In this document: positions 42,473 to 47,301 of the stretch, in pieces
Layout of the letters: every line of letters begins with the position of its first letter
How positions within the stretch are numbered: position 1 is the stretch's first letter
Source: Saccharomonospora azurea NA-128
GTDB lineage: Bacteria; Actinomycetota; Actinomycetes; Mycobacteriales; Pseudonocardiaceae
Assembly (NCBI RefSeq): GCF_000231055.2
Contig: NZ_CM001466.1
Span: forward strand, 3,238,398 to 3,302,397
Direction of reading: 5' to 3'
Length of the DNA stretch: 64,000 nt
Position numbers and translations under genes: made by a program
Notes under the pieces: generated by a model
Told to the model about the DNA's origin: nothing
The model's database searches: none
What the model saw: the letters and a program-made list of their open reading frames with translations, nothing else

Positions 42473-43344
42473 CCACACCGTCGCAGCAGCCGTCGCAGAC
42501 ACCGAAGCCCGGTTCGCAGCCGGCCGAGCAGACCTACGCGGCCGCGTCGGACGACGTGGACGTCGCGGCCATCTCGCCGGTGAGCGACGACGGCGAACGG
42601 CTGCGTGAGACGCCGCCCGCCGACCCGTTCGGGCCCGACATCGACGCCGAGGCGAAGGAACTCGCCGCGCGCTATCCGCAGTCGCGCTCGGCGCTCCTGC
42701 CGATGCTGCACCTCGTGCAGTCGGTGCAGGGGTACGTGAGCCAGGAGGGCATCGCGTTCTGCGCCCGGCAGCTCGATCTCAGCGAAGCCGAGGTCAGCGC
42801 CGTCGCCACCTTCTACACGATGTACAAGCGCAGGCCGTGCGGCCAGCACCTGGTGAGCGTGTGCACCAACACGCTGTGCGCGGTGCTCGGTGGCGACGAC
42901 ATCTACAAGAAGCTGTCGGAGCACCTCGGCGAGGACGGCAAGCCCCTCGGACACGAGGAGACGTCGGGTGAACCGGGTGAGACCGGCTCCATCACGTTGG
43001 AGCACGCCGAGTGCCTGGCGGCGTGCGACCTCGGCCCGGTGCTGCAGGTCAACTACGAGTACTTCGACAACCAGACGCCCTCCTCGGCGGTCGAGCTCGT
43101 CGACGCGTTGCGGCGTGGCGAGAAGCCGCAGCCGACACGCGGCGCACCGCTGACGGACTTCCGTTCGGTGGAGCGCCAGCTCGCCGGATTCTTCCCCGAG
43201 GAAGAGGACGTGTTCCGATCCGATGTGGACGCTCCTTCGCAGGCCGTGGAGACCTTGCGAGGAGCGCAGCTCGCCGCGGATCGCGGGTGGACGGCGCCGG
43301 TGATGCCGGAGAACGCCCCGTTGCCGGAGGTGGAGGCGAAATGA
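42469..43344 (+). CDS. nuoE: NADH-quinone oxidoreductase subunit E
   Basis: 291 residues. 24-kDa-type subunit with the [2Fe-2S] cluster N1a: first pair in [12 protein letters not shown], second in [13 protein letters not shown]-terminal ~55 residues (Gln/Pro/Asp-rich) and a C-terminal ~70-residue acidic tail ending [10 protein letters not shown] exceed the core. The last bases GAGGTGGAGGCGAAATGA (43327-43344) are repeated at 43440-43457, at the start of nuoF, on either side of an inserted segment. Confidence 0.96.
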
Positions 43345-43457
43345 ACGACGCTGCTTTCTCACGTTCGTGGAGCCGACCGGGGTGGGCCCCCGCTGTGGCA
43401 GATGCGTCTGCCGCAGTAGGGGAGGGTGTCCCGCAGGGCGAGGTGGAGGCGAAATGA
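43341..43457 (+). CDS. Bridging 38-codon ORF within the nuoE-nuoF insertion
   Basis: ATG at 43341 overlaps the nuoE stop (ATGA) and its own stop overlaps the nuoF ATG (ATGA), so it would be translated in relay between the two genes. Peptide begins [17 protein letters not shown] and ends GEVEAK, the last residues being a copy of the NuoE tail. Its initiation region is nuoE's own copy of GAGGTGGAGG. Probably a by-product of the insertion that preserves coupling rather than a functional protein. Confidence 0.4.
   Translation: MNDAAFSRSWSRPGWAPAVADASAAVGEGVPQGEVEAK
43345..43457. mobile_element. 113-bp insertion with 18-bp flanking direct repeat (MITE-like)
   Basis: The 18-bp sequence GAGGTGGAGGCGAAATGA occurs at 43327-43344 and again at 43440-43457, enclosing a 95-bp segment. 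Removing one copy and the segment restores a direct nuoE-nuoF ATGA overlap like the other nuo junctions. The segment contains a hairpin, CTGTGGCAGA (43393-43402) pairing with TCTGCCGCAG (43407-43416). It shares blocks GCCGACCGGG and GGGTGTCCCGCA, in order, with a sequence inside nuoG (45389-45435). No transposase or terminal inverted repeats seen; mobility is inferred. Confidence 0.6.
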
Positions 43458-44743
43458 CAGCGGATGCTTTGACCCCGGTTCTGACGAAGCGGTGGCTCTC
43501 GCCGCAGTCGTGGCGGTTGGCGACCTACGAGAAGTTGGAGGGCTACACGGCCCTGCGCAAGGCATTGTCCGGTACCCCGGAGCAGCTGGTGAAGCTGGTC
43601 AAGGACGCCGGGCTGCGGGGTCGCGGCGGCGCCGGCTTCCCGGCGGGCGTGAAGTGGTCGTTCATGCCGCCGAACGAGGACAAGCCGCACTACCTGGTGA
43701 TCAACGCCGACGAGGGTGAGCCGGGCACGTGCAAGGACATCCCGTTGATGATGGCCGACCCGCACTCGCTCATCGAGGGTTGTGTGATCGCCGCCTACGC
43801 CATGCGGTCGCATCACTGCTTCATCTACGTGCGTGGGGAGGCGTTGCACCCGATCCGCAGGCTCAACTCGGCCGTGCGGGAGGCGTACCAGGCGGGTTAC
43901 CTCGGCAAGAACATCCTGGGTACCGGTTACGACCTCGACATCACGGTGCACGCGGGCGCGGGTGCCTACATCTGCGGTGAGGAGACGGCGCTGCTCGACT
44001 CGCTGGAGGGTCGTCGTGGTCAGCCGCGGTTGAAGCCGCCGTTCCCGGCGGCCGCCGGTCTGTACGCCGCACCCACCACCGTGAACAACGTCGAGACGAT
44101 CGCGAGCGTTCCCTACATCGTCAACGGCGGTGCCGACTGGTTCCGGAAGATGGGCACGGAGAAGTCGCCCGGCCCGAAGATCTACTCGATCTCCGGGCAC
44201 GTGGAGAAGCCGGGTCAGTACGAGGCCCCGCTCGGCACGACGCTGCGGGAGCTTCTGGAGCTGGCGGGCGGCATGAAGGACGGCATCCCGCTCAAGTTCT
44301 GGACTCCGGGCGGGTCGTCGACACCGCTGTTCACCGCGGAGCACCTGGACGTGCCGCTCGACTTCGAGGGTGCGGCCGAGGCCGGGTCGATGCTGGGCAC
44401 GACCGCCGTGATGGTGTTCAACGAGACGGTGTCGGTGCCGTGGGCCGTGATGAAGTGGACCCAGTTCTACGAGCACGAGTCGTGCGGCAAGTGCACGCCG
44501 TGCCGCGAGGGCACCTACTGGCTGGCGCAGATTCTGGAGCGCATGGTCGAAGGCCGGGGCACCGAAGAGGACATCGACACGCTGCTCGACGTCTGCGACA
44601 ACATCCTCGGCCGGTCGTTCTGCGCGCTCGGCGACGGTGCCACGAGCCCCATCACCAGTGGCATCAAGTACTTCCGCGACGAGTTCGTCGCACTGTGTGA
44701 GAAGAACCGGGCGAGCTCGCCCGAATTGGTGGGAGCATCATGA
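43454..44743 (+). CDS. nuoF: NADH-quinone oxidoreductase subunit F
   Basis: 429 residues from ATG at 43454. 51-kDa-type subunit that oxidises NADH through [21 protein letters not shown] (glycine-rich FMN/NADH site), [33 protein letters not shown], and the [4Fe-4S] N3 ligands in [13 protein letters not shown] and [12 protein letters not shown]. Its start codon lies in the second copy of the direct repeat flanking the insertion. ATGA overlap with nuoG. Confidence 0.97.
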
Positions 44744-47301
44744 CCATCGCACCCGAGGCCGCCTCGAAGGACGAGATCCCGGTTCCCGAGGGCCACGTCA
44801 AGCTCACCATCGACGGTGAGGAGGTCGTCGCCCCCAAGGGCGAGTTGCTGATCCGTACCGCCGAGCGGATGGGCACGGTCATCCCGCGATTCTGCGACCA
44901 CCCGCTGCTCGACCCGGCGGGCGCGTGCCGCCAGTGCCTGGTCGAGGTGGAGATGGGCGGGCGGCCGATGCCGAAGCCGCAGGCCGCGTGCACGATGACC
45001 GTGGCCGACGGCATGGTGGTGAAGACGCAGCGCACCTCGCCCGTCGCCGACAAGGCGCAGCAGGGTGTGATGGAGCTGCTGCTCATCAACCACCCGCTCG
45101 ACTGCCCGATCTGCGACAAGGGCGGCGAGTGCCCGCTGCAGAACCAGGCGATGGCGCACGGGCGGCCCGAGTCCCGCTTCCAGGACCGCAAGCGCACGTT
45201 CCCGAAGCCGTTGCCGATCTCGACGCAGGTGCTGCTCGACCGCGAGCGGTGCGTGCTCTGCCAGCGGTGCACGCGGTTCTCGTCGCAGATCGCGGGCGAC
45301 CCGTTCATCGACCTGCTGGAGCGCGGTGCGCAGCAGCAGATCGGCACGTCCGAGACCGCCGACGTCCTCGGAGGCCTGACGAGCGAGAATGAGGGACGCG
45401 CTCGTCGAGGCCGACCGGGTGCGGGTGTCCCGCAAGAAACGTCCGCATCCAGGACCAGCGGTGGCACGCCGTTCCAGTCGTACTTCTCGGGCAACACCAT
45501 CCAGATCTGCCCGGTGGGTGCGTTGACCAGCGCCCAGTACCGGTTCCGCTCGCGCCCGTTCGACCTGGTGTCGTCGCCGAGCGTGTGCGAACACTGCTCG
45601 GTGGGTTGTGCGATGCGCACGGACTTCCGGCGCGGCAAGGTGATGCGTCGCCTCGCCGGGGACGACCCGCAGGTCAACGAGGAATGGCTGTGCGACAAGG
45701 GCCGCTTCGCGTTCCGGTACGCCGGGGCGGCCGACCGCATCCGCCACCCGCTCGTGCGCAACCGCGACACGGGCGAGCTGGAGCGGGCCTCGTGGACCGA
45801 GGCGTTGCAGGTGGCCGCGGAAGGGTTGGCGAAGGCACGCGACGGCCGCGGAGCCGGCGTGCTGCCGGGCGGCAGGCTCACGGTCGAGGACGCCTACGCC
45901 TACAGCAAGTTCGCCAGGGTGGCGCTGCGGACCAACGACATCGACTTCCGGGCCCGGGCGCACTCGGCGGAGGAACTGGACTTCCTCGCCTCGCACGTCC
46001 TCGGCACCACGCCGGAGAACGGAGTCACCTTCGACCAGCTCGAAGCCGCGCCACTGGTGTTGTGCGTGGCGTTCGAGCCGGAGGAGGAGGCTCCCGTGCT
46101 GTTCCTGCGGTTGCGCAAGGGCGCCCGCGACAAGGGCACGAAGCTCGTCCACATCGGTCAGTGGACCACCCCGGCGGTGAAGAAGACCCTCGGCGAGTTG
46201 CTGGCCTGCGCGCCGGGCGCCGAGGCGGGCGCCGTCGACGCGCTGGCGGAGCACGCTCCCGACGTCGACGAGCAGCTGCGGGCGGAGGGCTCGGTCGTGC
46301 TCGTCGGCGAGCGGGCTGCCGAGATCCCCGGCCTGTACTCGGCGTTGCACCGGTTGTCCGAGCGCACGGGAGCCCCGATCGCGTGGGTCCCGCGGCGGGC
46401 GGGCGAGCGGGGTGCGCTCGAAGCGGGTGCTCTGCCGACGTTGCTTCCCGGCGGGGCGGCCGTCACCGACGACGCCGCCCGCGCGACGCTCGAACGCGCG
46501 TGGAACCTCGACGCCGGATCGCTGCCCGCGCAGCCGGGTCGCGACACGACGGCGATCCTCACCGCCGCCCGCAACGGCGACCTCGACGGTCTGCTGGTGG
46601 GCGGTGTGGAGCTCGCCGACCTGCCCGATCCGGAGCTCGCGCTCGAAGCCGTGCGCCGCTGCGGCTTCGTGGTCAGCCTCGAACTGCGGCCCAGCGAGGT
46701 CACCGGCCACGCCGACGTGGTGCTGCCCATCGCGCCGGTCGACGAGAAGTCGGGCACCTACCTCAACTGGGAGGGGCGCAGGCGCGAGTTCTCGGTGACG
46801 CTGGACGGCACCGGCGCGCTGCCCGACTGCCGGGTCCTCGACACGCTCGCCGTCGAGATGGACGCGGACCTGTTCACGCAGACGCCCGCCGCCGCGGCCG
46901 GCGACTTCACCCGGAGCACGAACGACCTCGCCGGAGCACCGCACGCGGCTCCCGACGTGCCGAGCCCGTCGGTGGCGTCGCCCGAGCCGGGGAAGGCGCT
47001 GCTCGCGACCTGGCGTCAGCTCCTCGACGACGGGGTGCTGCAGGACGACGAGCCGCACCTCGCGGGCACCGCGCGCCGGGTGGTGGCGAGGATCCCGCGC
47101 TCCCTGGCGGACTCGCTCGGCGACCCGGCGTCGGTGACGGTGTCCACCGACCGCGGCGCGGTGACGCTGCCCGCGGAGGTCGCCGACCTTCCCGACGGCG
47201 TCGTGTGGCTGCCGGGCAACTCGCCGGACTCGAAGCTCCGAGCCACGCTCGGGGTCGGACACGGCGCCGTGGTGTCGATCGCTGCCGGAGGTGAACGGTG
47301 A
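44740..47301 (+). CDS. nuoG: NADH-quinone oxidoreductase subunit G, with in-frame insertion
   Basis: 853 residues. N-terminal [2Fe-2S] ligands in RFCDHPLL and [10 protein letters not shown], further Cys in [17 protein letters not shown] and [12 protein letters not shown], an extra cluster region in [15 protein letters not shown], then the molybdopterin-oxidoreductase-like domain. Between QQIGTSE (residue 205) and [21 protein letters not shown] about 36 extra, Arg/Gly/Ser-rich residues interrupt a stretch that is normally short (comparison from memory). The underlying DNA (about 45356-45465) resembles the nuoE-nuoF insertion. The frame remains open, so the protein is probably still made. Confidence 0.94.
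45382..45465. repeat. Element-like sequence inserted in frame within nuoG
   Basis: Contains, in the same order and strand as the nuoE-nuoF insertion, ATGA-GACGC, a TCGT..GAG stretch, GCCGACCGGG and GGGTGTCCCGCA, but lacks the ~40-bp hairpin portion between the last two. Encodes the extra ~30-36 residues of NuoG. Exact ends and target duplication cannot be fixed. Confidence 0.45.

Follow-up and report, generated by a model that had tools for sequence, protein, structure and literature searches.

A dispersed MIRU-like repeat at translation-coupled gene junctions of Saccharomonospora, with a duplicated initiation region and a probable start-masking hairpin

In Saccharomonospora azurea NA-128 the junction between nuoE and nuoF is occupied by a member of a dispersed repeat family that probably (at a rough estimate, three chances in four) lands at translation-coupled junctions, duplicates the target from the Shine-Dalgarno sequence (SD) to the TGA, and carries a hairpin over the duplicated RTGA which has been fitted to its site by selection and likely masks the start. 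The site is empty in some relatives, the stretch from SD to TGA stands on both sides of the insert, a like duplication accompanies most copies in the genus, and the number of units is variable. The window, by which is meant the whole stretch of DNA that was analysed, comprises 64,000 nucleotides of contig NZ_CM001466.1 (positions 3,238,398 to 3,302,397), and the features under discussion are collected in Table 1.

An 18-mer holding the SD, the nuoE stop and the nuoF start had been noted in the preliminary description of this DNA as flanking a 95-bp segment, and this proved exact both by coordinates and against shuffled sequence: GAGGTGGAGGCGAAATGA is present twice with a perfect match, no other place in the 64 kb scanned lies within 3 mismatches of it, and two matches occurred in 0 of 100 shuffles. 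The accompanying proposal, that an element landed in the ATGA junction with duplication of its target, appears to be borne out by empty sites and by other copies, as judged from sequence. The expectation that the 95-bp insert would recur as a whole failed, in that the genome has matches to portions of it at two further loci (89% and 75%), and a pattern built on the whole long form, the internal spacing of which was unfit, found no match. The long form has an extra hairpin, the stem of which is mostly kept across 14 long-form units. A search of Rfam with positions 42800-45800 of the window, at E values up to 5, gave a sole hit at E 1.9 that lies outside the element.

Table 1. Features of the nuoE-nuoF junction and of nuoG, in window coordinates.
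Feature	Position	Strand	Remarks
TIR1, upstream junction copy	43327..43344	+	SD GGAGG 43332-43336; ATGA 43341-43344 = nuoE stop and bridge start
Bridge ORF, 38 codons and stop	43341..43457	+	overlaps nuoE and nuoF by ATGA; begins at ATGA 43341-43344, ends at ATGA 43454-43457
Insert, long form of repeat family, 95 bp	43345..43439	+	site without insert in G001, G002, G006
3' arm CGTTCGTGGAGCC, partly complementary to duplicated GGCGAAATGAACG	43362..43374	+	helix over first ATGA, weak
Core left half GACCGGG	43375..43381	+	
Extra hairpin of long form: CCCC, GCTGTGGCAGA / TCTGCCGCAGT, GGGG	43387..43422	+	MFE fold
Core right half GGGTGTCCCGC	43424..43434	+	
TIR2, downstream junction copy	43440..43457	+	native nuoF SD and start
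nuoF	43454..44743	+	Pfam Complex1_51K, E 1.5e-48
nuoG	44740..47301	+	Pfam; hosts second copy
Short-form copy in nuoG, 72 nt (24 codons), in frame	45370..45441	+	hairpin GGCCTGACGAGCG / CGCTCGTCGAGGCC

Empty sites had been predicted in relatives, and they were found in 3 of the 12 genus genomes, where nuoE and nuoF share a single ATGA overlap and the 18-mer is present once (G001 and G002) or is represented by one GGAGGCGAAATGA (G006). The other nine genomes are filled, each by 1 to 3 short- or long-form units, and on the nuoF tree the pattern of filled and empty sites requires at least 2 changes. Outside the genus, among the best 27 of 87 nuoE-nuoF loci, the element is absent in 25, with junctions that vary in detail, and an array is present in G086; its neighbour on the tree, G054, is of the same genus and has no insert. 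One further locus (L288, in G038) has a long nuoE-nuoF spacer that holds no copy of the repeat family. The preliminary description had named two outcomes that would speak against mobility, a bridge conserved in distant genera or a lack of other copies and empty sites; what was found is no conserved distant bridge, together with both other copies and empty sites.

The core of the repeat, GCCGACCGGGTGCGGGTGTCCCGC, occurs at 9 places with up to 3 mismatches in the 4.76-Mb source genome (reversed control, 0), and a covariance model gives 13 matches there at E <=0.01, two of them in the window. Copies lie between pyrB and pyrC, gltB and gltD, pheS and pheT, and zwf and opcA (2 units), within nuoG, and, as 3 units, ahead of an oxidoreductase gene. 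The extra hairpin splits the core in the long forms, which comprise the insert at nuoE-nuoF and a single unit each at pyrB-pyrC and gltB-gltD. Pfam supports the identity of NuoF and NuoG in the window and, with one representative tested per genus group, of dihydroorotase, a gltD-type Fe-S protein, OpcA, homoserine dehydrogenase, a PheT-type tRNA-binding domain, a dioxygenase and S14; the remaining gene names at element junctions are presumed from the sequence. Short-form units are mostly of about 72 nt (spacing 67-78) and long forms of 105-116, a locus holds 1 to 5 units, and the number of units varies between genomes. The core was present at up to 2 mismatches in 12 of 12 genus genomes (control 0) and, counting raw matches, in 79 of 200 genomes of the taxonomic family, covering 30 of 46 genera, with one control match; at up to 1 mismatch it was present in 24 of 298 genomes of the order. 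In named genomes the exact core accounts for at least 120 stretches, 80 of them taken as loci, and the matches listed include Amycolatopsis, Saccharopolyspora, Prauserella, Nocardia, Skermania, Streptoalloteichus and others, as well as Myceligenerans and Antribacter, which belong to the Promicromonosporaceae in the order Micrococcales.

Several loci stand somewhat apart. Two candidates (L009 and L010) retrieved with GGGTGTCCCGCAGGG at 1 mismatch were dropped by eye, there being no surrounding element. Between protocatechuate dioxygenase-like genes of G006 (L063; C6:446000-449000) units lie on either side of a run of N, which is probably a longer array unresolved in the assembly. In a Pseudonocardiaceae MAG (L224) the core is repeated head to tail at intervals of some tens of bases, in a different layout without the start-codon arm, and the small genome of G210, which belongs to a different family within the order, has 3 copies of GCCCGGGTGCGGGTGTCCCGCA (L325), perhaps a remote variant of the core.

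The setting of the repeat was assessed on 70 clusters, drawn from the 12 genomes of the genus. Left and right edges of a cluster share an exact repeat whose maximum length has a median of 16 nt and reaches 12 nt or more in 50 of the 70, against a median of 7 nt and 13 of 787 when edges of different loci are swapped; the shared stretch holds TGA in 51 of 70 clusters and GGAG in 52 of 70. Duplications of about 18 bp had been expected at other copies, and there are indeed copies with site-specific direct repeats of their own, of a length that varies between sites. The fixed-length target duplication of the MITE type is thus not what is seen here, with variable repeat length and a nuoG copy that has none. 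The nuoE-nuoF target itself holds two consecutive GGAGG, and the repeat begins at the first or the second of them depending on the genome. In 65 of the 70 clusters a long ORF upstream has its end close to the first arm (a count that includes the two nuoG clusters, in which this ORF is probably spurious), and in 63 of these 65 the end lies 22-37 nt ahead of the core. A downstream start was found in 55 of 70 clusters, and an upstream end together with a downstream start in 51; random same-strand places at the same loci gave an upstream end in 133 of 700, a downstream start in 176 and both in 40.

Aligned short-form units, 52 in all and drawn from diverse junctions and genera, show pairing of the first RTGAGC with an arm downstream of it. 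The helix shows covariation: its double-change cells number 53, where shuffles average 15.2 (sd 3.1) and 0 of 500 come as high; structures slid along the alignment give 9 to 14 such cells, a comparison biased toward the proposed structure because that structure was derived from the same alignment. Of the 7 base pairs in the helix 6 have a double change, a number that by itself does not exceed the level in shuffles (mean 5.1; 179 of 500 reach it). The alignment joined 18 genus units to 34 from outside; the genus units were taken one per junction group, with one unit shared by two groups and the slot meant for nuoG filled by the nuoE-nuoF unit of L106, and the outside units were pre-filtered for GGAG near the left arm. 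A swap of arms between sites is independent of the alignment that supplied the structure and so avoids this circularity: in pairing with the 5' arm, a site's own 3' arm beat the mean of other sites' arms at 64 of 67 genus loci and at 68 of 77 outside loci (77 of the 80 listed were used, 3 being short of flank), or at 18 of 19 when each junction group is counted once. In arm energy the rpsN group is contrary (own -15.2, swapped -16.4) and the nuoE-nuoF group weak (-14.7 own vs -13.9 swapped). The copy at nuoE-nuoF in the window itself ranks with the weakest (own -14.9 vs -14.6 swapped), its RNA fold is equal to that of shuffles (z 0.00), and its covariance-model match (43326-43401, 34.4 bits) includes one non-standard pair. 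In the arms G-U outnumbers A-C by 81:32 and 79:27, against 1052:681 and 1245:904 in swapped pairs (Fisher p 0.022 and 0.0006, calculated over orthologous loci, which are not independent).

The bridge between nuoE and nuoF is an open ORF of 38 codons that overlaps both genes by ATGA, as its translation confirms, and it ends in EVEAK* just as NuoE does. Chains of ATGA-linked ORFs reach the native nuoF start in 9 of 9 filled genus genomes, the units there measuring 71, 74, 110 or 113 nt, all 2 mod 3; in G004 a bridge of 24 codons lands on the nuoF start. Units of 72 nt would extend the downstream protein instead of bridging, and the lengths kept at 2 mod 3 would reflect selection for coupling at a strictly overlapping gene pair. 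The suggestion that such an ORF hands ribosomes on from gene to gene fits nuoE-nuoF (9 of 9) and is not general elsewhere: genus-wide, 13 of 53 rows have a first bridge ORF that extends to the native start, where for 8 rows the native start was not located and an array was scored as a miss if its first ORF stopped within it. Among single-unit rows with a native start found the count is 11 of 25, or 12 with L084 reread, and away from nuoE-nuoF the core is read in other frames.

The second copy in the window lies in frame inside nuoG, scores 75.7 bits (E 5.6e-18) under the covariance model and folds strongly (z -3.18). Among the 11 genus genomes read, all but G009, it is present in G000 and G005 only. 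The insert of G005 amounts to 72 nt net relative to G004, and in G000 24 residues replace a single one of G008, or 69 nt net; no target duplication was seen at this copy. Since G004, a near twin of G005, is without it and differs from G005 in the bases beside the insert too, the nuoG copy may have been brought in with recombined DNA.

Two other explanations of the bridge were weighed. Replication slippage, copying the junction so that the bridge would be a decayed tandem copy, is suggested by the near-identical tandem units at many loci and remains a standing account of changes in unit number. As the origin of the insert it is very improbable: the core is common to unrelated junctions and to many genera, some relatives have junctions without it, and slippage fails here because it is unable to bring in a foreign core. 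A conserved small protein of the Nuo complex is scarcely credible as the meaning of the bridge; the ORF is open in 9 of 9 filled sites of the genus, but the insert is absent from 3 of 12 genus genomes and from 25 of the best 27 loci outside, bridge lengths differ, and elsewhere the core lies in other frames, the sites without insert being the reason for its low rank.

Other alternatives grant the mobile repeat and concern the hairpin. One of these is that it serves transposition, as a single-stranded DNA or RNA substrate, and not translation, the covariation then being a mark of continuing activity of the element. The family-wide presence of the helix agrees with this, and G-T pairs on one DNA strand would yield an excess of G-U as well, but the stem makes use of duplicated host bases and is fitted site by site, which a pure substrate need not be, and on balance we think it unlikely, if deserving of serious attention. 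Templating of the arm from the target during insertion, with no later selection, would account directly for site-specific arms. Arms are in general imperfect and rich in G-U, and in the G086 array, which is undated and is absent in G054, the arm of the first unit matches the target at TCAT and CGCC and is mismatched in the middle; because of this mismatch templating is ranked low, as an improbable account.

Under the preferred reading, of a mobile repeat with a hairpin fitted after arrival, a mobilising enzyme would insert a pre-existing unit at GGAGG-N-RTGA and duplicate that stretch, leaving the upstream gene with its stop and, at the far end, the downstream gene with an SD and start of its own. 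The hairpin of the unit would pair the first, duplicated RTGA with the nearby arm, and once inserted the arm would adapt to its new site by selection. In this state the hairpin likely hides the spare start until it is opened by a ribosome that reaches the end of the upstream gene, and the native second start would be free; at nuoE-nuoF, lengths held to 2 mod 3 would provide a chain of short ORFs passing ribosomes to nuoF. A bolder proposal is that the mobile intercistronic repeat forms a translation lock that can be re-tailored, its core-adjacent arm pairing with either the upstream or the downstream copy of the initiation region. We regard this as quite unlikely; were it true, the traffic of ribosomes on the upstream gene would set the opening of the downstream start, and each insertion would be a small coupling switch, whose setting could be adjusted through mutations in one arm and through the number of units.

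The family occupies core operons of the genus (nuo, pyr, glt, pheST, zwf-opcA and hom), and its core reaches many other genera, including Nocardia and two genera of Promicromonosporaceae in another order. A covarying hairpin over the duplicated stop and start suggests, in a form open to testing, how DNA can be inserted at the closest of operon junctions with both genes left intact, and the variable number of units provides natural experiments in translational coupling as well as possible typing markers. A search of titles and abstracts in the freely accessible literature found no description of the repeat family. These are MIRU-like repeats whose hairpin is fitted to its site; they are undescribed in the literature searched, and the hairpin is new here.

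Small dispersed repeats are familiar from other bacteria. The palindromic elements of Rickettsia are small repeats able to sit in frame within protein genes, a likeness to the in-frame nuoG copy, from which most copies of the present family differ in being intergenic. BOX, RUP, ERIC and REP are small, dispersed, hairpin-forming and non-autonomous; compared by description, the present family differs from them in landing at SD-RTGA junctions and in duplicating the initiation region. The closest counterpart in manner of working is found in the mycobacterial MIRUs, which are said to trace to Supply et al. in 1997.

Mobility appears to be common ground, with 3 empty and 9 filled sites among 12 genomes in the present family together with the G054/G086 pair. 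An excerpt of one source gives MIRUs as units of 40-100 bp at 41 places in the reference genome, 12 of them variable in copy number (PMC2734929), and an excerpt of another describes them as apparently mobile, inserting at start codons, with an internal ORF coupled to the gene at a spacing of -4 nt (PMC12548453). The present repeats are likewise dispersed and of variable tandem number, with short forms that fit a unit of about 40-100 bp and long forms that exceed it. They share the position at start codons and operon junctions, in the sense of transcription (51 of 70 clusters vs 40 of 700 random places). The -4 nt coupling of the ORF is a mixed case, with 9 of 9 at nuoE-nuoF but 13 of 53 rows overall.

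A mycobacterial-type set of 40 loci from genomes of the order allowed the two to be placed side by side. One copy in it precedes a gene taken to be regX3-like. The SD lies inside the duplicated target in the present family and inside the unit in the mycobacterial type, and the site-fitted arms that are strong in the former give 24 of 40 (p 0.77) and 27 of 40 (p 0.07) in the latter. In some mycobacterial-type loci (such as L379 and L392, within L362-L401) the short stem GCGCCG/CGGCGC seems changed on both sides, which hints at a hairpin in MIRUs too, where the arm tests are not significant. Homology with MIRUs was considered on account of a resemblance of the left end to a mycobacterial motif and was not supported by the consensus test: local alignment of the two consensuses, both crude majority ones, scored 20, with a shuffle mean of 19.5 and 97 of 200 shuffles as high. 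The present family thus appears, from sequence comparison, to work like a MIRU, a likeness of working principle to which the consensuses add no support for common descent, and repeats that work in the MIRU manner are not peculiar to mycobacteria.
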